From: Longispora fulva
GTDB lineage: Bacteria; Actinomycetota; Actinomycetes; Mycobacteriales; Micromonosporaceae
Direction of reading: 5' to 3'
Assembly (NCBI RefSeq): GCF_015751905.1
Contig: NZ_JADOUF010000001.1
Coordinates: 4,836,001 to 4,900,000, forward strand
DNA: 64,000 nucleotides
The notes beneath the pieces were generated by a model. It was not told where the DNA came from. It worked only from the letters and a program-made list of their open reading frames with translations, and searched no databases. Shown here piece after piece: positions 43,738 to 54,747 of this stretch. Within the stretch, counting starts at the first letter, position 1. Each line of letters starts with the position of its first letter. A program made the position numbers and the translations under genes.

Positions 43738-45531
43738 ATGCCGGTCTCGGTAACCATGCCCGCTCTCGGTGAGAGTGTCACCGAGGGCACCATCACCCGC
43801 TGGTTGAAGCAGGAGGGGGAGCGGGTAGAGGCCGACGAGCCGCTGCTCGAGGTGTCGACCGACAAGGTCGACACCGAGATTCCCTCCCCGGTCGCCGGGG
43901 TTGTCGCCCGTATCGTCGTCGCCGAGGACGAGACCGTCCCGGTCGGCGCCGAGCTCGCTGTGATCGCCGGGGACGGCGAGACGGTCGCCGCCGCTCCGGC
44001 GGTTGCCGCTCCCGCCCCGGCCCCCGTGGTCGAGGCCCCCGCGCCGGTCCAGGCCACCGCTCCGGTGGCCGCGCCGGCTCCGGCCGCGCCGGCCGCACCC
44101 GCCGCTGCGGCGCAGGGCACCGACGTCACCATGCCGCTGCTCGGCGAGTCCGTCACCGAGGGCACGGTCACCCGGTGGCTGAAGCTCGTCGGCGAGACCG
44201 TCGAGGCCGACGAGCCGCTGCTCGAGGTGTCCACCGACAAGGTCGACACCGAGATCCCGTCGCCGGTCGCCGGCACGGTGCTGGAGATCCGCGTCGAGGA
44301 GGACGAGACGGTGCCGGTCGGCTCCGTGCTCGCCGTCATCGGCGCGGCGGGTGCCGCTCCGGCCGCCCCCGCTCCGGCGGCTCCCGCGCCCGCCCCGGTC
44401 GCCCCGGTCGCCCCGGCCCCGCCGGTCGCCGCGCCGGCTCCGGTCGCGCCCGCCCCGGTGGCCCCGGCCCCCGTGGCCCCCGCTCCGGTCCAGCCGGCCC
44501 CGGTCGCCCCGGCGCCGGTCGCGGCCACCCCGGCTCCGGCCGCTCCGGCCCGGCCCGCGCCCGTCGCGCAGACCGGTGCCGACGAGAGCAACAACGGCTA
44601 CGTCACCCCGCTGGTCCGCAAGCTGGCCGGCGAGCACGGCATCGACCTGGCGTCCCTCACGGGCACCGGCGTCGGCGGCCGGATCCGCAAGCAGGACGTC
44701 CAGGACGCGATCGAGAAGGCCAAGGCCAACGTCCCGGCCGCTGTCGTCGCCGCTCCGGCTGCCGCCACGACGGCCACCGCCGCCAAGGTCGCCGCCACCC
44801 CCAGCCCGCTGCGGGGCAGCACGGTGAAGATGTCGCGCCTGCGCGCCCTCGTCGCCAAGCGGATGGTCGAGTCGCTGCAGGTCGCCGCGCAGCTCACCAC
44901 CGTGGTCGAGGTGGACGTCACCCGGATCGCCAAGCTGCGCCAGCAGGCCAAGGCCGAGTTCCAGGCCCGGCACGGCGTGAAGCTGTCGTTCCTGCCGTTC
45001 TTCTCCCTGGCCGCGGTCGAGGCGCTGCAGATCCACCCGGTGGTCAACGCCAAGATCGACGAGGTGGCCGGCACGATCACGTACCCGGAGGCCGAGCACC
45101 TCGGCATGGCCGTGGACACCGAGAAGGGCCTCATGGTCCCGGTGATCAAGAACGCCGGTGACCTGAACCTCGCCGGGTTCGCCCGCCGGATCGCCGACAT
45201 CGCCGAGCGCACCCGGTCCAACAAGGTCACCCCGGACGAGCTGTCGGGCGGCACCTTCACGCTGACCAACACCGGCAGCCGGGGCGCCCTGTTCGACACC
45301 CCGATCATCAACCAGCCGCAGTCGGCGATCCTCGGCACCGGGGCCGTCGTCAAGCGCGCCGTCGTCGTGACCGACCCGGACCTGGGCGAGATCATCGTGC
45401 CCCGGTCGATGGTGTACCTGGCCCTGTCCTACGACCACCGCCTGGTGGACGGCGCGGACGCGGCCCGGTTCCTGGTCACCATGAAGGAGCGGCTGGAGGC
45501 CGGCAACTTCGAGGCCGACCTCGGCCTGTAG
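43738..45531 (+). CDS. sucB: 2-oxoacid dehydrogenase E2 with two lipoyl domains
   Basis: 597 residues. Two lipoyl domains with T-D-K-V-D-T-E-I (lipoyl Lys43 and Lys168) are joined by Ala/Pro-rich linkers. A subunit-binding domain (~285-325; [11 protein letters not shown] ... G-R-I-R-K-Q-D-V) and an acyltransferase core ending in S-Y-D-H-R-L-V-D-G (His567, Asp571) follow. The layout matches actinobacterial DlaT/SucB, shared by the pyruvate and 2-oxoglutarate complexes. It needs LipB/LipA, encoded ~5-8 kb downstream. Confidence 0.94.
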
Positions 45532-45546
45532 CACCTGAGTCACTAG

Positions 45547-45574
45547 AGCGGCGGGCCCCATGGGGCCCGCCGCT
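45547..45574 (+). terminator. Terminator after the E2 gene
   Basis: Perfect 13 bp stem (45547-45559 and 45562-45574) with a 2 nt apex, so the top pairs must open. It starts 15 bp after the stop. Confidence 0.8.
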
Positions 45575-45710
45575 TGCTCGTGCTCTGGCAATTGATCTAA
45601 CGCCTTGGCCCGGTGAGGGCGGGGAGGCGAAGGCGGAAGGGTTCTCGCATACCGGGGTTGTATGCGAGGTTCCTGACAACGCACGCATCGTCGTCCTCAC
45701 CGGGCCCCAC

Positions 45711-45725
45711 TATGCTGCTCTGATG
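45711..45725 (+). promoter_or_regulatory. Leaderless promoter of the 111-residue gene
   Basis: TATGCT at 45711-45716, 6 nt before the ATG at 45723. Confidence 0.55.
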
Positions 45726-46058
45726 GATCTTGATGGACGGGTGTTCCGGGCCGTGGCGGACGTGGTCGGCGGCGACGTCGGCACGGACACGCTCTTCGCG
45801 TACCACCAGGACGGCGACCTGGTCTGGGCCAGCTACTCCGGCGGCTCGATCCGCCTCGGTCACCTGGTCGGCATCCGGTCCGGCGACACCCTCGACTTCC
45901 GCTACAGCCAGCTGACCACGGACGGCCGGACGGACGCCGGGCACTGCGTGGCCACGGTGGAGGCCCTCCCCGACGGCCGGCTGCGGCTGCACGAACGTTG
46001 GGAGTGGGAGTCGCGCGACGGCGCGGGCACGAGTGTCGTGGAAGAGGTCCGACCCTAG
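45723..46058 (+). CDS. Small beta-rich protein of unknown function
   Basis: 111 residues. Alternating hydrophobic strands (L-F-A-Y-H-Q-D-G-D-L-V-W-A-S-Y-S-G-G-S-I-R), G-H-L-V-G and a C-terminal R-W-E-W-E-S-R-D-G-x-G. This family is often labelled N-acetylglutamate synthase in databases, but the fold has no acetyltransferase motif, so I leave the function open. The next gene starts 10 bp later. Confidence 0.7.
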   Translation: MDLDGRVFRAVADVVGGDVGTDTLFAYHQDGDLVWASYSGGSIRLGHLVGIRSGDTLDFRYSQLTTDGRTDAGHCVATVEALPDGRLRLHERWEWESRDGAGTSVVEEVRP

Positions 46059-46071
46059 ACTGGAGCCCATG
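46056..46071 (+). promoter_or_regulatory. Promoter of the TIGR01777 gene
   Basis: TAGACT at 46056-46061 overlaps the stop region of the previous gene and lies 7 nt before the ATG. The spacer GGAGCCC could also act as a ribosome site. Confidence 0.45.
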
Positions 46072-46953
46072 CGGGTACTCATGTCCGGAGCGTCGGGTTT
46101 CCTCGGCACGGCCCTGTCCCACCACCTCGCGGCGCACGGCCACGAGGTGACCCGGCTGGTCCGCCGGCCGGTGCAGGCCCCCGACGAGTCGCGCTGGGAC
46201 CCGTACGCGGACGTGGTCGACCTCGGCGCGCCGGACGCGGTGGTGAACCTGTCCGGGGCCGGGGTGGGCGACCGGCGGTGGACCCGCGCGTACAAGCACA
46301 CGATCCGCGACAGCCGGGTCGAGCCGACGGCCGTGCTGTCCCGGGCGATCGCGGCTGCCCCGGTCAAGCCGAGGGTGATGCTCAGCGCCTCCGGGATCGG
46401 CTTCTACGGCGACACCGGCGATGTCGTGGTCACCGAGGACTCCCCGCTCGGTGAGGGCTTCCTGCAGGAGGTGTGCCGGGCGTGGGAGTCGGCGACCCGG
46501 CCGGCCGAGGACGCCGGGGTGCGGGTCGCGCATCTGCGTACCGGGCTGGTCCTGTCGGGTGCCGGTGGGCTGCTGCCCCGGATGCTGCCGCTGTTCCGGG
46601 CCGGGGTGGGGGGCCGGTTGGGGTCCGGGCGGCAGTACATGCCGTGGATCACGCTCGCCGACTGGCTCGGCGCGGCCACGTTCCTGCTGGACGCTGCGGT
46701 GCACGGGCCGGTGAACATGGTCGGGCCGGATCCGGTGACCAACGCGGAGTTCACGAAGGAGTTGGCGTCGGCCCTGCGCCGGCCGGCCGTGCTTCCGGCG
46801 CCGTCGGTGGGGTTGCGCGTGGTGCTGGGCGAGTTCAGCTCGGAGGTCCTGGCGGGGCAGCGGGCGATGCCGGCGGCGTTGACGGACGCGGGTTACCGGT
46901 TCGAGCACACCACGCTGCCGGCGGCCCTGCACTGGGCCCTGGGCGACTCCTGA
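46069..46953 (+). CDS. TIGR01777-family SDR epimerase/oxidoreductase
   Basis: 294 residues. Rossmann loop G-A-S-G-F-L-G at ~7-13, V-N-L-S-G-A-G-V near 60, S-A-S-G-I-G-F-Y-G with the catalytic Tyr and the C-terminal L-x-A-G-Q-R-A-x-P-A-x-L segment. The homologue in M. tuberculosis is Rv2216, also between the E2 gene and lipB. The substrate is unknown. The 3' end is 1 bp from a convergent gene. Confidence 0.9.
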   Translation: MRVLMSGASGFLGTALSHHLAAHGHEVTRLVRRPVQAPDESRWDPYADVVDLGAPDAVVNLSGAGVGDRRWTRAYKHTIRDSRVEPTAVLSRAIAAAPVKPRVMLSASGIGFYGDTGDVVVTEDSPLGEGFLQEVCRAWESATRPAEDAGVRVAHLRTGLVLSGAGGLLPRMLPLFRAGVGGRLGSGRQYMPWITLADWLGAATFLLDAAVHGPVNMVGPDPVTNAEFTKELASALRRPAVLPAPSVGLRVVLGEFSSEVLAGQRAMPAALTDAGYRFEHTTLPAALHWALGDS

Positions 46954-46954
46954 C

Positions 46955-47506
46955 CTACTGGAGCTTCACCTTGACCCCGCCGGAGAACAGCGAGTCGTGC
47001 AGCTCCAGGCTGAGCAGTTGGCCGTCCTTGGGAATGTCGAAGACGATGAGCCCGGTGACCTCATTGCCAGGATTGATTTCCGTGTACCACACCTGGGCGC
47101 TGTCTGGGTTGGCGTAGAGACTGGCGGTGGAGTCAGGGGAATAGCGCGCGTTGTTCGCCCCGAATCCCTTCTGGTTGCTGTCGGACATCGTCTGGGGTTT
47201 GTTTCCGATGTTCTTGACGGACAGGGTCACGAGGCAGAACTGTCCCTGAGCACTCTTGTTGAGATAGTCGCCGCCGACCTGGTCCACTCCGCACTCGACC
47301 TTCTTGACCACGAACTCGAACTTGCCGTCTCTGACCGGGGTGCCGATGCTGGGTGGCGGTGGTGCCGGCGCCTTGGTCGCGGCCGGCGCGGCCACAGCGC
47401 TGCCCTCATGCGGTGTTTCCGCGGTGGCGACCGTCGCGACAAAGCCCGTGCCGAGGGCCGCGATACAACAGAGCACAGCCAGGTGCCCCATTCTGGGTGC
47501 GGTCAT
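46955..47506 (-). CDS. Secreted DUF4352-type protein
   Basis: 183 residues. A signal peptide (~8-29, ending A-T-A-E) is followed by an Ala/Pro linker and a beta-sandwich domain of the DUF4352 kind (F-E-F-V-V-K-K-V-E-C-G-V-D, F-C-L-V-T-L-S-V-K-N-I-G-N-K-P-Q-T, N-P-G-N-E-V-T-G-L-I-V-F-D). One Cys pair (~72 and ~91) probably forms a disulfide. The role is unknown; such domains are common on actinobacterial surfaces. Confidence 0.82.
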   Translation of the reverse strand: MTAPRMGHLAVLCCIAALGTGFVATVATAETPHEGSAVAAPAATKAPAPPPPSIGTPVRDGKFEFVVKKVECGVDQVGGDYLNKSAQGQFCLVTLSVKNIGNKPQTMSDSNQKGFGANNARYSPDSTASLYANPDSAQVWYTEINPGNEVTGLIVFDIPKDGQLLSLELHDSLFSGGVKVKLQ

Positions 47507-47566
47507 CGTCGTCTCGATTCATGCGAACGAGAAATGACCTGACATGGCGATTCTACAACTCGACCA

Positions 47567-48655
47567 TTACCCAGGTATCGCATCGAGTGAAAGGGCGGAC
47601 CCGAGGGAAGCGATGATCGCCAATACCGCCGCTGGATCCCCGGCGCCTTCCACGAGGAGTAATTGCCTTCGCACTCCGGTCGCCGCGGCGCTCGCCCGCA
47701 GTCGGGCCACGCACTCCTCGACCGTCCCCACCGGACTGATCGCCAACAGGTGTTCCAGATACGCCGCCGGATCACGGCCGGCTCCCGGCACCAGCCGGAC
47801 GTAGTCGGCCGTGGTCGCCAGCCAGCCGGGCATGGACCTCCGCAGCGCGTCCGGGTCCCCGACGAGGTGCGCCGACGCGTGCGGGGCGTCCGCCGGCCCC
47901 CCGGCCGCCCGATAGCGCTCCAACAACGCGATCTTGGAAACATCGTCATCGTGTACGCCGAGCAGCAGCGGCAACCCGCGCGCCGCCGCGAGTTCCACGG
48001 TCCCGGGCGAGGTGGCCGCGACCCACACGGTCGAGCTGCCGGCACCGGTCGCACCGACGACCCCGGCCGCGCCCACCGGCCCCGCCCCGCGCGTTGACAG
48101 TCCCAGGTCGACGGGCCGGAAGTCGAAGAACTCCCCCGCCGCCGACACCGACCCGTCCAGCGCGGACAGCAGCACGTCCATCGCCTCGGGGAACCCGTGC
48201 TCGTAGCGGGGCAGGCCGGTGCCGAACACCTCCAGGTCCACCCACGGCCCACCCCGGGCCACCCCGAGCCGGAACCGCCCGCCGGACACGGCGTCGAGCA
48301 GTAGCGCGTCCTCGGCGAGCGCGACCGGGTGCCGGTTGGACAGGATCGCCGCGGCGGTGCCGACCGTGAGGGTGGAGGTGCGGCCGAGCAGGTAGCCGGC
48401 GAGGGTCGGGGCGGAGGCGCAGCGGCCGTACCGGATGAAGTGGTGTTCGGCCAGCCACACGCCGCCGAAACCGGCCCGCTCGGCGGCGAGGGCATAGTCG
48501 ACGCAGTGGTCGAGGGCCTCTCGGGCGCTCTGCCCGGGAAACTGCCCGGCCAGCAGGAACACGTCCACGGCGGCAGCGACTCCGGCAGGGACGCCGGGTG
48601 ACGAGGTGTCCACCCCGGGGACGTGCCCCGGGGTGGACGGTCGATCAGCAGTCAC
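47567..48655 (-). CDS. LLM-class flavin-dependent oxidoreductase
   Basis: 362 residues, TIM-barrel fold of the luciferase-like monooxygenases: G-F-G-G-V-W-L-A-E-H-H-F near residue 45-60, G-T-A-A-A-I-L-S-N-R-H-P and G-R-F-R-L-G-V-A-R-G-G. It uses FMN or F420; the cofactor cannot be told. The GTG at 48655 overlaps the end of the SCO5389 gene by 11 bp, so it is the third gene of a likely operon with the CooC-like ATPase. Confidence 0.85.
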   Translation of the reverse strand: MTADRPSTPGHVPGVDTSSPGVPAGVAAAVDVFLLAGQFPGQSAREALDHCVDYALAAERAGFGGVWLAEHHFIRYGRCASAPTLAGYLLGRTSTLTVGTAAAILSNRHPVALAEDALLLDAVSGGRFRLGVARGGPWVDLEVFGTGLPRYEHGFPEAMDVLLSALDGSVSAAGEFFDFRPVDLGLSTRGAGPVGAAGVVGATGAGSSTVWVAATSPGTVELAAARGLPLLLGVHDDDVSKIALLERYRAAGGPADAPHASAHLVGDPDALRRSMPGWLATTADYVRLVPGAGRDPAAYLEHLLAISPVGTVEECVARLRASAAATGVRRQLLLVEGAGDPAAVLAIIASLGSALSLDAIPG

Positions 48656-49037
48656 GGAGCTCCGGCGACTGGTTGAGCAGCTGGCCGCGCGGCGAGATGA
48701 AAGCCTGGTACCGCGCACCGTCCACGGCGGACGGCCGGAACGCCGCCACCCGGTGGCAGTTCTGGAAGGCGAGCTTCACGCCGAAGTGCCGCTCGAGGCC
48801 ACCCCGGATCGCGTCGGAGGCCAGGGCGCGCAGCAGCTGGCCGCGCTCCGCCTCGCTCGGCGGCGGGATCTCGTGGTCGGCCATCTCGGCCTCGCTGAGC
48901 CCGAGGTCGGCGACGACGCCGCTGACGATCTCCCAGGCGTACGGGAGGGACAGCCGGACGCAGTCGACGAACTCCGCGTCGGTGACCGTGCCGGACTCGG
49001 CGCGCTCGAGCAGGGCGGTGGGGACATCAAGGGACAT
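48645..49037 (-). CDS. SCO5389 family protein
   Basis: 130 residues with the family hallmarks: M-S-L-D-V-P at the start, F-V-D-C-V-R-L-S-L-P-Y-A-W, G-Q-L-L-R-A-L-A-S-D-A-I-R-G, H-F-G-V-K-L-A-F-Q-N-C-H-R and the C-terminal R-G-Q-L-L-N-Q-S-P-E-L-R-D-C. Function unknown. In Streptomyces it sits next to a similar P-loop ATPase gene; here the ATPase is 12 bp upstream, so the pair is conserved. Confidence 0.9.
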   Translation of the reverse strand: MSLDVPTALLERAESGTVTDAEFVDCVRLSLPYAWEIVSGVVADLGLSEAEMADHEIPPPSEAERGQLLRALASDAIRGGLERHFGVKLAFQNCHRVAAFRPSAVDGARYQAFISPRGQLLNQSPELRDC

Positions 49038-49049
49038 GTGCTTCTCCTG

Positions 49050-50006
49050 TCAGTTGGAAACGGGCAGACCCAGGACGAAGTCCGGGTCGATCTGGTGCGC
49101 GAGGTCCTCGCCGGTCTTGGCGTTGGCCCAGGCCGACGCGTTGCGCAGGTGGAACTCCGCGGCCTGGGCGCTGTAGGTGGCCCAGTCCTTCCGGGTCATG
49201 TCGACGGCTCCCTTGAGCCGGGCGAGGACGGCCCGGTTGACCTCCTCCAGCGCCTCGATGGGCTGGGGGTGGCCGCGCTCGGCGGACTTGACGTAGCTGG
49301 ACCGGCCGAGCCAGCCGATCAGGTCCCCGCCGACGTTCTCGCGGAGGAACTCGACGTCGGAGGCGTCCTCGACCTTGTTGCCGACGACGTCGACCCGCAC
49401 GCCGTACTCGCTGGCGTAGCCGGCGTACTGCCGGTACACGCCCACGCTGCGCAGGGTCGGCTCGCAGACCAGGAAGGTCCGGTCGAACCGGGTGAACAGC
49501 CCCGAGGCGAAGGAGTCGGCCCCGGCGGTCATGTCCACGACGACGTACTCGCCGGGGCCGTCGACGAGGTGGTTGAGCACCAGTTCGACGGCGCCGACCT
49601 TGGAGTGGTAGCAGGCCACGCCCAGGTCTTCGGTGGCGAATGGCCCGGTGACCATGAGCCGCACGCCCCCGACAGCGCGGGCGAGTGAGTCATAGACCGG
49701 GTTGTCCTCGGAGATCCGCAGCAGTCGGGAGCCACGCCCGGGCGGGGTGGTCTTGACCATCGCGGCGGCGGAGCTGATCCGCGGGTTGTCCCCCCGCAGG
49801 TACTCCTTGATGTCGGGCAGCGCGTCGCCCATCGCCGGGAGCATCACGGCCTCCTCCTCCGTGGCCCCGAGGGCCGCGGCGAGGTGCTGGTTGATGTCGG
49901 CGTCGATGGCGAGCGTCGGGGCTCCGGCGTGGGCGAGGTAGCGGGAAAAGAGCGCGGCCAGGGTGGTCTTGCCGCTGCCGCCCTTCCCCACGAAGGCGAT
50001 CTTCAT
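49050..50006 (-). CDS. CooC/MinD-like P-loop ATPase
   Basis: 318 residues with a deviant Walker A G-K-G-G-S-G-K-T-T at ~7-15, switch I I-D-A-D-I-N-Q-H and D-M-T-A-G-A-D (switch II), as in CooC-type ATPases that load metal ions into enzymes. It has no membrane segment. With SCO5389 it forms a conserved actinobacterial pair. An 11-of-15 match to a Zur box lies directly upstream, so a link to zinc or another metal is my inference. Confidence 0.88.
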   Translation of the reverse strand: MKIAFVGKGGSGKTTLAALFSRYLAHAGAPTLAIDADINQHLAAALGATEEEAVMLPAMGDALPDIKEYLRGDNPRISSAAAMVKTTPPGRGSRLLRISEDNPVYDSLARAVGGVRLMVTGPFATEDLGVACYHSKVGAVELVLNHLVDGPGEYVVVDMTAGADSFASGLFTRFDRTFLVCEPTLRSVGVYRQYAGYASEYGVRVDVVGNKVEDASDVEFLRENVGGDLIGWLGRSSYVKSAERGHPQPIEALEEVNRAVLARLKGAVDMTRKDWATYSAQAAEFHLRNASAWANAKTGEDLAHQIDPDFVLGLPVSN

Positions 50007-50021
50007 TGTGTACTCCGGTAG

Positions 50022-50036
50022 TGATACCCATTTTCA
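50022..50036 (-). promoter_or_regulatory. Possible Zur-type operator
   Basis: TGATACCCATTTTCA (read on the plus strand) matches 11 of 15 positions of the actinobacterial Zur consensus TGAAAATGATTTTCA. It lies 16-30 bp before the CooC-like ATPase start in one of the few AT-rich patches of the window. The right half is exact, the left half poor. Confidence 0.4.
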
Positions 50037-50245
50037 ATAAGGAACGTACCAGCCGGACAAAAGTTACGGACGCCCCTCTCCGGATCACGTCGACGGCACC
50101 TGTGTGCCACCACCCGCCGACGCTTCCCCTGAATCCCCGGTCCGGTTCAGGTAGTTAGGCCAGTAAATGTACAAGCCAGACGGCGGGGACGGAACGGTTG
50201 AGACGTGCCGAGTTAGACAGGAAGTGGACGCGCGGTGGCGCGCGA

Positions 50246-50260
50246 TAGGCTTCCCTGGTG
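50246..50260 (+). promoter_or_regulatory. Leaderless promoter of lipB
   Basis: TAGGCT at 50246-50251, 6 nt before the GTG at 50258. The same hexamer precedes lipA. Confidence 0.55.
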
Positions 50261-50905
50261 ACACAGACAGCGCCGATAGAGGTCGTCCGCGCCGGGGTCG
50301 TCGACTACATGGCCGCGTGGGACGAACAGCGCCGGATCCATGAGGCCGTCGCCTCGGGGGCGGCCACCGACACGATCCTGCTGCTGGAGCACCCGAGCGT
50401 GTACACGGCGGGCAAGCGCACCGAGCCGTGGGACCGCCCGGTGGACGGCACCCCAGTGATCGACGTCGACCGGGGCGGCAAGATCACGTGGCACGGGCCG
50501 GGCCAGCTCGTGGGGTACCCGATCATGAAGCTCGACTCCAAGCTCGACGTGATCGCCTACGTGCACCGGGTCGAGGCGATGTTGGTCACGGTGTTCGCCG
50601 AGTTCGGCGTCGCCACCGCGACCATCTCCGAGCGCAAGGAACGCCGGGGCGCGGTCTGGGTGCTCGAGGACGAGCGCGGCCCGGACCGCAAGCTGGCCGC
50701 GATCGGGATCCGGGTCGCCTCGGGCGTCACCCAGCACGGGTTCTCCATCAACTGCGACCCGGACATGACGGCGTTCGACAAGATCGTGCCGTGCGGGATC
50801 CGAGACGCCGGCGTCACCTCGCTGACCCAGGAACTCGGCCGCGATGTGCCAGTCTCCGAGGTTCTCCCCGTGGTGGAACGCCATCTTGGCATGCTGCTGC
50901 CCTAG
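50258..50905 (+). CDS. lipB: Octanoyltransferase LipB
   Basis: 215 residues. It moves octanoyl from acyl carrier protein to the lipoyl domains. The catalytic Lys145 (R-K-L-A-A-I-G-I-R) and Cys179 ([10 protein letters not shown]) are present, with [10 protein letters not shown] (~79-88). The insertion [13 protein letters not shown] before the Lys is common in actinobacterial LipB. A membrane-protein gene follows at 12 bp; lipA is 3 kb on. Confidence 0.96.
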
Positions 50906-50916
50906 ATTCTGAGGAC

Positions 50917-52251
50917 ATGCGGCGCGCACGGATCCTGGCGGTCACCGAGACGGTCCTCATCGTCCTCGGACTGGTCGGCTTCCTCGTCCTACTCCCGCAC
51001 GACATCGGCGGGGACGCCTCGAAACGGTTCGAGGCGCTCAGCGCGCTGATCTGGCACGGCCGGCTGATCGGCAACGAGTACTCGCTGGTCGGGCCGCTGT
51101 TCGCCACCCCGCTGCTGCTGCTCGGGCACTGGGTGGGGCATGAGGCGGCGTGGACCCAGGAGTTCAACACCCTGGTGTTCGCCCTCGGGGTGTACGTGTC
51201 GTGGCGGCTGTTGCGCGGTCACCTGCCCGGGGCGCTGCTGCGCAGATTCTTCCTGGTACTGATCGCCGGCTCGATGTTCGCCGCCCACGTGACCGGCTTC
51301 AACGCCGAGGTGTTCACGGCCATGGGCGTCGGCGTCGGGCTGACAGCGGTGGCCGTGCGGGTCGGGATCGCCCTGGGCTGGACGGCGGCCGTGCTCGGCG
51401 TGGTCAACACCCCGGCCGTCGCGCTCGGCCTCGGCCTGGTCGTGGTGCGGCGCGGCCTGGAGACCAAGCGGTTGCGGTACGGCCTGGTCGTCCTCGCCAC
51501 CGCCGCACTGATCCTCGGCGAGAGCTGGCTGCGGCGCGGCTCCCCGTTCGCCAGCGGCTACGAGGGCAACGCCGGCTACCGGACGATCATGCCGTACTCG
51601 GGGCTGGAGGGGTTCAGCTATCCGTTCCTGCTCGGGCTGCTGTCCCTGCTGCTGTCCTTCGGCAAGGGCCTGGTCTTCTACGCCCCCGGCCTGCTGCTGC
51701 CGGTCCGGGCGACCATGCGCCGGTTCCCGCTGTCCCCCGACGCGGACCTGCGCCGGCTGTACTCCTGGTGGCTGCTCTTCCTCGCCGGCCTGATCCTGAT
51801 CTACTCCCCCTGGTGGGCCTGGTACGGCGGCTTCACCTGGGGACCGAGGTTCCTGCTGTTCGCCTCGCTGCCCGCGTCGCTGGCGCTGGCCGTCCGGCTG
51901 TGGGATCTGGCGGCCCCGCTGTGGGCCCGGCTGCTCACCCTCGGGGCGTGGACGCTGTCGTGCTGGGTGGCGGTGTGCGCGGCGGCGTTCACATCGGCGG
52001 CGTTCCCGGACCAGTGCTCCCGCGACACGATGGCCTACGAGGCGTTCTGCCACTACACGCCCGAGTTCAGCGCGCTGTGGTATCCGCTGGTGTTCCATCA
52101 GGGGCCGTCGTGGCGCGGCTGGGTCGCGATCGGGTACATCGCGGTGGTGTTCGTCTACCTGGCGGCGCCGCTGGTGCGGTCGATCGCGGTGGACGTGGCG
52201 GGTCCGGTGCGCGCCGCGCTGCGCGGGGTGTCGCGCGGCTGGCGCTTCTGA
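50917..52251 (+). CDS. Polytopic membrane protein, GT-C glycosyltransferase-like
   Basis: 444 residues with about ten membrane helices. The loop motif W-W-A-W-Y-G-G-F-T-W-G-P-R-F-L is typical of a large group of GT-C/mannosyltransferase-like proteins. The early D-I-G-G-D-A-S-K-R-F-E loop contains the acidic residues expected near the first helix. The donor is probably a polyprenyl-phosphate sugar, but this is family-level inference. It starts 11 bp after lipB; TAGATT 8 nt upstream and GAGGAC are both present. Confidence 0.8.
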   Translation: MRRARILAVTETVLIVLGLVGFLVLLPHDIGGDASKRFEALSALIWHGRLIGNEYSLVGPLFATPLLLLGHWVGHEAAWTQEFNTLVFALGVYVSWRLLRGHLPGALLRRFFLVLIAGSMFAAHVTGFNAEVFTAMGVGVGLTAVAVRVGIALGWTAAVLGVVNTPAVALGLGLVVVRRGLETKRLRYGLVVLATAALILGESWLRRGSPFASGYEGNAGYRTIMPYSGLEGFSYPFLLGLLSLLLSFGKGLVFYAPGLLLPVRATMRRFPLSPDADLRRLYSWWLLFLAGLILIYSPWWAWYGGFTWGPRFLLFASLPASLALAVRLWDLAAPLWARLLTLGAWTLSCWVAVCAAAFTSAAFPDQCSRDTMAYEAFCHYTPEFSALWYPLVFHQGPSWRGWVAIGYIAVVFVYLAAPLVRSIAVDVAGPVRAALRGVSRGWRF

Positions 52252-52257
52252 GCAGAG

Positions 52258-52287
52258 GTGGCCCGACACCGTCCGGTGCCGAGCCAC
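52258..52287. terminator. Hairpin between the GT-C-like gene and aspS
   Basis: Outer arms GTGGC/GCCAC (52258-52262, 52283-52287) and an inner 7 bp stem with one mismatch. It separates convergent genes. Confidence 0.55.
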
Positions 52288-52294
52288 GCTCCCG

Positions 52295-53548
52295 CTACGG
52301 GGTAACTCTGTGCAGGTCTCTCGGGAACAGGGTGACCTCGCGGATGTTGGTCGCGCCGATCAGCTGCATCACGAACCGTTCGAGCCCGATCGCGAAGCCG
52401 CCGTGCGGGGGCATCCCGAGCCGGAACACCTCCAGGTAGCTCTCGTACGGGGCCACGTCCTCGCCGCGCTCGGCGAGGGTGGCGACGTAGTCGGCGTACT
52501 TGTGCAGTCGCTGCGCCCCGCTGACCAGCTCCAGGCCCCGGAAGAGCAGGTCGAAGCCCCTCGAGTAGGGGGCCTGGCCCGGTTCCGGGTGGGTGTAGAA
52601 GGCGCGCTTGAGGGTCGGGTACCCCTCGACGAACACGAAGTCGGAGCCGTGCTCGCGCAGCCCCCACTCCCCGATCGCCCGCTCGTGCGCGGGGGCCAGG
52701 TCCAGCTCGCCCGGGTCGGCCCCGGCGATCTTCAGCGCCTCGGCGAAGTGCAAGACCGGAATCTCGACGGGTACGACCGGCAGCTCGAAGCCCAGCCCGG
52801 CGGCCTCCTCGATCATCCCGGCGACGACGTCGCGCAGGACGGCCATCACCTCGCGGTGGTCCTGGATGAAGCCCAGCTCGACGTCGAGCGAGACGTACTC
52901 GGCCAGGTGTCGGGACGTGTCGTGCGGCTCGGCCCTAAACACCGGCCCGATCTCGTAGACGCGCTCGAACACGCCGACCATCGTCTGCTTGTAGAACTGG
53001 GGCGACTGGGCGAGGTAGGCCGTGCCCCCGAAGTAGTCGACCTTGAAGACGCTCGCGCCCGACTCCGTCGCCGAGCCGACGATCTTGGGCGTGCACACCT
53101 CCGTGTACCCCTGGGCGTCGAGCACCCGGCGGAAACCCCGGATCGCCGCCGCCGACAACTCGAAGACCCGTTGACGGCTGGGATGACGCAGGGTGACGGC
53201 GGCGTGGTCCAGGAGCGTCGGCAGGGTGACGCCCAACTCGGGGCGGAACAGCTCCACCGGCAGCTCGCGGACCGGCTCCGACAGCAGCTCGATGACCGGT
53301 TCGGTGAGCTCCACCCCGCCGGGCGCGGCCGGGTTCGCGATGACCGTGCCGACGACGCCGACGACGGTCTCCTCGCCGAACCCGTCGAGCGCGCCGGGGG
53401 TGGACACGACCACCTGGGCGAGGCCCGCACGGTCGCGAACGATGAGGAAGGACACCGATTTGAGGACTCGGCGGCGGTGGGTCCAGCCGGCGATCCTGAC
53501 CCGCTGGCCCACGTGGGCGGCGAGTTGGGACGAGAGAACGCGTTGCAT
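52295..53548 (-). CDS. aspS: Aspartate--tRNA(Asp/Asn) ligase, archaeal type
   Basis: 417 residues, far shorter than bacterial AspRS (~590) because the bacterial insertion domain is absent. N-terminal OB-fold (G-W-T-H-R-R-R-V-L-K-S-V-S-F-L), motif 2 F-R-A-E-P-H-D-T-S-R-H-L-A-E-Y and motif 3 G-G-F-A-I-G-L-E-R-F-V-M-Q-L. Archaeal-type enzymes of this sort are often non-discriminating and charge tRNA-Asn as well. The ATG has a perfect AGGAGGT site that the upstream T-box can hide. Acquisition from an archaeal-type source is likely. Confidence 0.92.
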   Translation of the reverse strand: MQRVLSSQLAAHVGQRVRIAGWTHRRRVLKSVSFLIVRDRAGLAQVVVSTPGALDGFGEETVVGVVGTVIANPAAPGGVELTEPVIELLSEPVRELPVELFRPELGVTLPTLLDHAAVTLRHPSRQRVFELSAAAIRGFRRVLDAQGYTEVCTPKIVGSATESGASVFKVDYFGGTAYLAQSPQFYKQTMVGVFERVYEIGPVFRAEPHDTSRHLAEYVSLDVELGFIQDHREVMAVLRDVVAGMIEEAAGLGFELPVVPVEIPVLHFAEALKIAGADPGELDLAPAHERAIGEWGLREHGSDFVFVEGYPTLKRAFYTHPEPGQAPYSRGFDLLFRGLELVSGAQRLHKYADYVATLAERGEDVAPYESYLEVFRLGMPPHGGFAIGLERFVMQLIGATNIREVTLFPRDLHRVTP

Positions 53549-53700
53549 GACACCTCCTGTGGGAACTACTCCCCGGAGGTGTGGGCGATGGGGCGCTTCG
53601 CGGTACCACCACACCTTCGCCGCCTCGTGGCGGCCTCAGTCGGTCCGTACGGGGACCATTCGGCAGAGCCAGTGGCGGTTGTCAGTCGCTGGCACCCTGC
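53549..53700 (-). promoter_or_regulatory. Translational T-box riboswitch of aspS
   Basis: Minus-strand RNA. Stem I 53700-53663 (GCAG/CTGC and GCCAG/CTGGC pairs) has a loop with GAC (53683-53681) directly followed by AAC (53680-53678). Stem II lies at 53657-53642 and stem III at 53633-53620. The T-box core UGGUACCGCG (53608-53599) contains the UGGN bulge that pairs with tRNA NCCA. GGUGUGG (53615-53609) can pair with CCACACC (53585-53579). The latter overlaps a segment that otherwise pairs with the ribosome site AGGAGGTGTC (53558-53549). Uncharged tRNA would therefore free the ribosome site. Confidence 0.85.
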
Positions 53701-53707
53701 GACACAG

Positions 53708-53738
53708 AGAGTAGCGAACGGACGCGGAGTGTTGTCAA
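53708..53738 (-). promoter_or_regulatory. Promoter of the aspS T-box transcript
   Basis: TTGACA (53733-53738) and TACTCT (53708-53713) on the minus strand, 19 bp apart. Predicted start near 53701, just before T-box stem I. It is one of the few consensus -35 hexamers in the window. Confidence 0.65.
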
Positions 53739-53801
53739 GGACATAAGACACGCGGTGGTGAGCCCGGTAACACGCGAGTTCAGGTGGGGGTTTGGCGGGC
53801 G

Positions 53802-53817
53802 TAGGCTGACCGACGTG
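53802..53817 (+). promoter_or_regulatory. Leaderless promoter of lipA
   Basis: TAGGCT at 53802-53807, 7 nt before the GTG at 53815; same hexamer as lipB. Confidence 0.55.
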
Positions 53818-54747
53818 ACTGTGGTGAGCCCTGAAGGACGACGCCTTTTGAGGGTCGAGGCCCGTAACGCCGAGACCCCGATCGAGCGCAAGCCTCCGTG
53901 GATCAAGATCAAGGCGAAGATGGGTCCCGAGTACACCCAGATTCGCAATCTTGTCACGCGCGAGGGCCTGCACACAGTCTGCCAGGAGGCCGGCTGTCCC
54001 AACATCTACGAGTGCTGGGAGGACCGGGAGGCGACGTTCCTCATCGGTGGCGACCAGTGCACCCGGCGGTGTGACTTCTGCCAGATCGACACCGGCAAGC
54101 CGGCCGACTTCGACGCGGACGAGCCCCGGCGGGTGGCCGAGTCGGTCGCCCAGATGGAGCTGAAGTACGCGACGATCACCGGCGTGGCCCGCGACGACCT
54201 GCCCGACGGCGGCGCGTGGCTGTACGCGGAGACGGTCCGCCAGATCCACCAGCTCATGCCCGGCTGCGGTGTCGAGCTGCTGATCCCCGACTTCAACGCG
54301 AAGCCCGACCAGCTGGCCGAGGTGTTCGACAGCCGGCCGGAGGTGCTCGCGCACAACCTGGAGACCGTGCCCCGGATCTTCAAGCGGATCCGCCCGGCGT
54401 TTAGGTACGACCGGTCGTTGAGCGTGATCACCGAGGCGCGCAAGGCCGGCCTGGTCACCAAGTCGAACCTGATCCTCGGCATGGGCGAGGAGCGCGAGGA
54501 GATCACCCAGGCGCTCCGCGACCTCGTGGACGCCGGGTGCGAGCTGATCACGATCACGCAGTACCTGCGGCCGTCGCCGAAGCACCACCCGGTCAGCCGG
54601 TGGGTGAAGCCGGAGGAGTTCGTCGAGCTCCAGGAGGAGGCCCTGCAGATGGGCTTCGCCGGGGTCATGTCCGGGCCCCTGGTCCGGTCGAGCTACCGGG
54701 CCGGTCGGCTCTACCAGCAGGCGTTGGACGCGCGCGTCGCGTCCTGA
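53815..54747 (+). CDS. lipA: Lipoyl synthase
   Basis: 310 residues from the GTG at 53815, well inside a longer open frame that overlaps the T-box region. Two [4Fe-4S] sites: auxiliary cluster C-x4-C-x5-C (Cys56, 61, 67) and radical-SAM C-T-R-R-C-D-F-C (Cys82, 86, 89). The C-terminal R-S-S-Y motif that ligates the auxiliary cluster is present. It inserts two sulfurs into the octanoyl group placed by LipB. It is followed by hairpins and a convergent gene. Confidence 0.96.

Follow-up and report, generated by a model that had tools for sequence, protein, structure and literature searches.

A T-box leader with a GAC specifier and a truncated architecture precedes a second, archaeal-type aspartyl-tRNA synthetase gene in Longispora fulva

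The window, a stretch of 64,000 nucleotides of Longispora fulva DNA, carries on its minus strand a T-box element ahead of aspS2, the gene of an archaeal-type aspartyl-tRNA synthetase (AspRS2). The presence of this element is real. Judged from sequence comparison, the leader is most likely functional as a translational T-box for tRNA-Asp and very probably controls this second AspRS of the organism.

In the proposed mechanism, when uncharged tRNA-Asp is absent ACACCTCC would pair with the Shine-Dalgarno sequence and translation would stay low. The GUC anticodon of uncharged tRNA-Asp would pair with the GAC in the loop of stem I, and the 3' end of this tRNA with the UGGU bulge; this pairing is predicted to stabilise the A1/A2 antisequestrator, which would then withdraw the anti-Shine-Dalgarno strand and allow aspS2 to be translated.

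Anatomy of the leader and the gene behind it

The elements of the leader are listed in Table 1. The sequence-only reading of this DNA had described a short stem I with GAC directly followed by AAC, a stem III, the T-box core and the GGTGTGG/CCACACC helix, and all of them were located on the minus strand, stem I being read at 53700-53663. The terminal loop of stem I is ACTGACAAC, flanked by G-C-G and C-G-C. The two exclusive helices of the same reading were also recovered: ACACCTCC is the exact 8-bp complement of GGAGGTGT at the ribosome site, perfect over 8 bp in the sibling leader L091 of the same genus too, and it overlaps the 3' strand of A1, so that the antisequestrator and the anti-Shine-Dalgarno helix are mutually exclusive.

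Table 1. Features of the aspS2 leader, in window coordinates
Feature	Position	Strand	Remarks
Promoter-like pair	53708..53738	-	TTGACA 53738-53733 and TACTCT 53713-53708; 19-nt spacer
Short stem I	53663..53700	-	same plan in sibling L091
Specifier GAC (Asp)	53681..53683	-	placed in 72/72 leaders
AAC directly 3' of specifier	53678..53680	-	at that place in 1/72 leaders (window)
IIA/B-like element	53642..53662	-	GGTCC 53657-53653 / GGACC 53646-53642
Stem III	53619..53634	-	GCCGCC-ACGA-GGCGGC, between GAG and GAA
Antisequestrator (A1, T-box bulge, A2)	53578..53615	-	R1 match and covariation
Helix A1		-	GGTGTGG 53615-53609 paired with CCACACC 53584-53578
T-box core		-	TGGTACCGCG, starts at 53608
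T-box bulge (7 nt, UGGN-ACC type)	53608-53602	-	TGGTACC, between A1 and A2
Helix A2		-	53601-53598 / 53588-53585
Sequestrator	53550..53582	-	ACACCTCC 53582-53575 with Shine-Dalgarno GGAGGTGT 53557-53550
Inner hairpin of sequestrator	53574-53561	-	by eye
aspS2 (archaeal-type AspRS)	52295..53548	-	ATG at 53548

The leader had been called complete, stem II included. That description does not hold: stems I and III are separated by 28 nt, which contain only the IIA/B-like element, and there is no full Stem II. No S-turn pattern was found between these stems, the pattern used being a crude one that also misses leader L092, where Stem II is recognised by eye. As for the promoter proposed earlier, the corresponding region of L091 is nearly identical by eye, but a strict promoter scan of the window leader (16-18 nt spacer) returned no match.

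The AspRS2 protein scores 505.4 bits against NF003483 (cut-off 353) and 336.6 against the related TIGR00458, below the cut-off of 368.4. Among solved structures the closest in sequence is the T. thermophilus AspRS2, deposited as a non-discriminating enzyme of archaeal type (E 1.7e-111), and the AspRS2 of L. fulva is itself probably non-discriminating to judge by its sequence. PMC4206432 describes an additional archaeal AspRS serving as non-discriminating enzyme, and calls such an acquisition rare. The genome, of 8.68 Mb in one contig, also encodes a bacterial-type AspRS1, with no T-box core within the 1.5 kb searched upstream of it. No AsnRS above the family cut-off was identified in the genome (best 122.4 bits against 342.6) and GatB is present; charging of tRNA-Asn therefore probably takes the indirect pathway.

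An AsnRS-like frame of 370 aa is found at C1:242137-243069 (L165); its match to the AsnRS profile is confined to positions 128-450. At C1:2098878-2100125, 823913-824524 and 4286778-4287089 there are clusters of tRNA genes, most of them with lower scores, which include one tRNA-Asp gene and one tRNA-Asn gene out of the two present for each. The neighbourhood of aspS2 (window 43738-54747) looks lipoate-related, with genes that resemble lipB (50258) and an acyltransferase E2, and a divergent gene resembling lipA. Several loci of relatives also end beside a lipB-like frame, by eye.

Identity and conservation of the T-box

The model R1 is a covariance model of the antisequestrator from 46 relatives, with the window leader and its sibling, that is, the whole genus, excluded. 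In the R1 search the window leader obtained 50.9 bits (E 1.2e-12 within the window); on the whole genome, where 150 of 19,872 first-look candidates were scored, its E value was 1.6e-10 and that of the next match 0.078. A partial R1 match downstream of aspS2 (52126-52146, minus strand, 18.1 bits, E 0.0067) is probably due to chance. The covariance-model search suggested with the sequence-only reading thus finds the leader with R1; RF00230 itself does not, having no match in the window at the gathering score nor at E 10. Two low-threshold Rfam matches in the window were dismissed as chance-like.

RF00230 performs poorly on T-boxes of Actinobacteria. Its score for the ileS T-box of this same genome is 34 bits, where 93 is the cut-off, and its 56 matches in 61 related genomes all stay under that value. 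Seven out of nine aspS leaders match at E <= 0.1, one of them above the cut-off; this one is L046 (Herpetosiphonaceae), with 99.9 bits against 93, and the Kribbella leader L011 has E 1.8e-12. No match was obtained in the two short aspS leaders tried, L025 and L049. Two other approaches gave no signal: a search with TGGTACCGCG as an exact string does not discriminate (23 matches in the genome, 28 for the reversed control), and the whole-leader fold is not distinguished from shuffles (z -1.01, 28 of 200 shuffles as good).

The comparative set comprises 80 loci kept of 271, of which 48 were examined closely, 46 with the core. Among the other 32, 29 were checked for the core only and the partial L053, L060 and L076 were excluded. 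A further 25 loci came from 61 related genomes, where the gene is present in 27 (own genome counted). The gene fragment L116 was excluded, and L030 and L112 were parsed by hand. The T-box core precedes the aspS gene in 71 of the 73 relatives examined, the exceptions being L044 and L054, lacking the core upstream of the gene.

Covariation was evaluated in an alignment of 48 distinct sequences from 72 leaders. In the antisequestrator 97.0% of the cells are paired and 9 of 12 pairs present changes on both sides, the compensatory changes that had been named earlier as a check; shuffles gave 4.0 pairs (0/500 as high as 9) and slid versions 1-3. The anti-Shine-Dalgarno helix has at least 6 bp in 49 of 67 leaders and under 6 bp in the remaining 18, five Chloroflexota leaders being omitted from this count, and its mean length is 6.7, whereas shuffling gives no more than 4.7. 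This helix and the covariation of the antisequestrator support the idea that a T-box of the translational type precedes an archaeal-type AspRS.

Pairing between a loop CCC and a GGG located after the antisequestrator was also considered and discarded; the match is better than with shuffled loops, yet no better than with re-dealt partners (5.24 vs 5.19), hence no covariation. The heptamer GCGTTGC was identified between the antisequestrator and the start in 18 of the 24 leaders whose gene starts with ATGC[A/G]ACGC, and before other starts in 2 more; 46 leaders have neither. Leaders with GCGTTGC include L028, L036, L092, L096 and L106. This complement of the gene start is possibly a second, start-codon sequestrator. 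In the window the ATGCAACGC start is present and the GCGTTGC complement is absent.

In a phylum-wide sample, AspRS2 was identified in 2 of 396 genomes and R1 finds the leader in both; R1 matches occur in 12 of the 396 overall. Four other R1 loci were inspected: one is before ileS, one before a PheRS-like gene and one before a bacterial-type aspS, while the fourth is ambiguous. In genome G364 a short aspS-type leader (L172, R1 41.9 bits) precedes a bacterial-type AspRS with 66% identity, over 470 aligned positions, to the AspRS1 of the window's own genome. This case supports the module being an Asp sensor rather than part of the history of one gene. By eye, L172, whose core lies near position 1500 of its locus in reversed orientation, presents a seemingly different sequestering hairpin, CTTTCGGGT/ACCCGAAAG.

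Outside this set, the core was found within 450 nt upstream in 24 of 29 further archaeal-type aspS loci, mostly clostridial, a count in which the core alone was sought. The link between gene and T-box is therefore old or often transferred, and not peculiar to the window. aspS as a T-box target is not new in general: PMC2494555 reports that one of three aspS genes of C. acetobutylicum is T-box regulated, and the clostridial loci share with the window a core before the same gene type. The target gene, presented as new in the sequence-only reading, is new at most for translational T-boxes. For Chloroflexi, PMC2494555 reports T-boxes of ile and trp genes. Among the open-licence literature matches listed, none was recognised by title or abstract opening as dealing with an aspS T-box of Actinobacteria. 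According to PMC7778990 the TBDB authors applied a class II model to every actinobacterial reference genome; TBDB may therefore list these leaders already.

The specifier and the competing readings

GAC can be placed as specifier in every one of the 72 leaders, window included; GAC was itself part of the search patterns, and in 16 short leaders it was positioned with hand-set motifs. In a triplet-free context search the last match was GAC in 51 of 56 long leaders; in three (L048, L051 and L104) GAC was one base off or at another match, and the two without a match (L041 and L105) have GAC by eye. Placement is unsure in L038, where the specifier is 125 nt from stem III. Some automatic picks were replaced or rejected: TTGACAAC, in the promoter of the window and L091, gave way to the GAC of the stem I loop, and the GAC picked in L033 and L051 was at the wrong site.

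In 54 of the 72 leaders ACT or CCT comes next; AAC follows in the window alone, and the leader of the same genus reads GAC-GAA. All 16 short leaders have a purine after GAC, which agrees with the preference for purines that PMC7583486 describes at the position after the specifier. The AAC of the window is best read as such a purine context, not a second codon, and is probably incidental. Of the triplets whose conservation was in question, then, GAC is kept throughout and the adjacent AAC is not conserved.

This distribution bears directly on the two-codon specifier suggested by the sequence-only reading, in which GAC would read tRNA-Asp and the adjacent AAC tRNA-Asn. GAC-AAC is literally present in the window leader, and an AspRS probably charges tRNA-Asn, given GatB and no AsnRS above the family cut-off. 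There is also a precedent in C. acetobutylicum (Saad 2013), where PMC4052509 describes overlapping codons binding two tRNAs in vitro and in vivo, likewise in connection with tRNA-dependent transamidation and tRNA-Asn. Unlike that T-box, the second triplet is not conserved here, and in the window it lies at the 3' edge of the stem I loop, against the C-G-C helix strand, which makes two codons very improbable. A variant, in which the single GAC is read by both tRNAs, tRNA-Asn (GUU) using one first-position G-U pair, agrees with the similarity of the enzyme to the non-discriminating T. thermophilus AspRS2 and with the tRNA genes: both tRNA-Asn genes carry a GTT anticodon and, by eye, share G73 with both tRNA-Asp genes, so that the acceptor end cannot distinguish them. 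Specifier mispairing usually costs T-boxes much affinity, however, and no comparative signal requires sensing of tRNA-Asn; dual reading appears quite unlikely.

The remaining readings concern what the leader does. In Chloroflexota L042, L045 and L051, three out of five leaders, a hairpin and a T-run lie 3' of the core by eye, as in a transcriptional T-box acting by a terminator. For the window leader this would be exceedingly improbable, as the scan found no terminator-like site in it and it has an anti-Shine-Dalgarno complement instead. A T-box in decay would be unresponsive, with weak or constitutive translation, the genus having lost Stem II and the genome the Watson-Crick match to G73. The truncated Stem I without a full Stem II, the absence of an Rfam match for the window leader and its UGGU bulge, where U opposite G73 makes a G-U wobble, are what decay would leave. 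Against it, all core helices are intact in the window and in L091; the sibling has GGCTC/GAGCC where the window has GGTCC/GGACC, that is, paired changes in the IIB-like helix; and it keeps UGGC, as do 63 of the 72 leaders, while the 8-bp anti-Shine-Dalgarno helix is perfect in both. Decay is thus unlikely, and a responsive translational T-box for tRNA-Asp remains the preferred reading.

Departures from known T-boxes and their meaning

The closest known systems are the actinobacterial translational T-boxes, described for ileS in PMC1262725; a short stem I, the bulge, the antisequestrator and Shine-Dalgarno sequestration are common to them (PMC1262725, PMC7583486) and to the window leader. One of these T-boxes precedes ileS in the own genome (L089). 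The differences are the specifier, GAC here and ATC in L089 (by eye), the lack of a full Stem II, the regulated gene, here a second AspRS, and the pair at the foot of helix A2. In related genomes (30 of 56 matches fetched, one ileS locus unparsed) this pair is G-U in 19 of 19 parsed ileS leaders; all 10 aspS leaders that were parsed have G-C instead.

Among the 48 distinct aspS sequences the foot pair is G-C in 43 and A-U in 5. Section 12 of PMC7583486 presents a conserved G-U at this place as the main barrier to the 3'-aminoacyl group. The aspS leaders do not carry it, and the rule is not strict elsewhere: in five other genomes, reached via clostridial and Chloroflexota loci (30 of 55 matches fetched), the 23 parsed T-boxes, 2 of them aspS leaders, comprise 7 with G-U, 10 with A-U, 4 with G-C and 2 with non-standard pairs. 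Over both sets, 8 of 60 fetched matches had no parsable core, and L221, L227 and L241 were poor parses. The non-G-U foot pair of the aspS leaders is a consistent, not unprecedented, deviation.

In the author's reading, three leader plans precede archaeal-type aspS: one with both a long Stem I and a Stem II, one with the long Stem I only, and one with a short Stem I. The second plan is that of the Kribbella leaders and resembles the glycyl T-boxes, which have a long Stem I but lack Stem II; for L011, the alignment to RF00230 omits the Stem II region. Unlike glycyl T-boxes, the window leader has no long Stem I either. On a tree of 65 of the 72 AspRS2 proteins, with plan labels assigned by the author, the distribution of the short plan requires 6 changes, which may be gains or losses; branches with good support force 5 of these. 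The window leader and its sibling combine the truncated Stem I with no full Stem II, while L092, their next relative, has a short Stem I and by eye keeps Stem II. Section 7 of PMC7583486 describes Stem II as essential where Stem I is truncated; the window leader shows no such Stem II with an S-turn.

It is conceivable, at somewhat short of an even chance, that this leader is a working minimal T-box that has neither the elbow-binding long Stem I nor a full Stem II and would read tRNA-Asp only through a codon in the terminal loop, the IIA/B-like element and the 3' discriminator domain, with the G-C foot gating charging. Once the two-codon reading fails, the reduced architecture and the changed foot pair of A2 are what stays of interest. 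The window leader and its sibling depart from the rule that Stem II is essential, and offer natural sequences for testing which T-box parts are needed; the aspS leaders as a group depart from the G-U foot rule, another natural test of T-box requirements. In L. fulva the T-box would control a second, probably non-discriminating AspRS, the type of enzyme that feeds tRNA-dependent asparagine synthesis.
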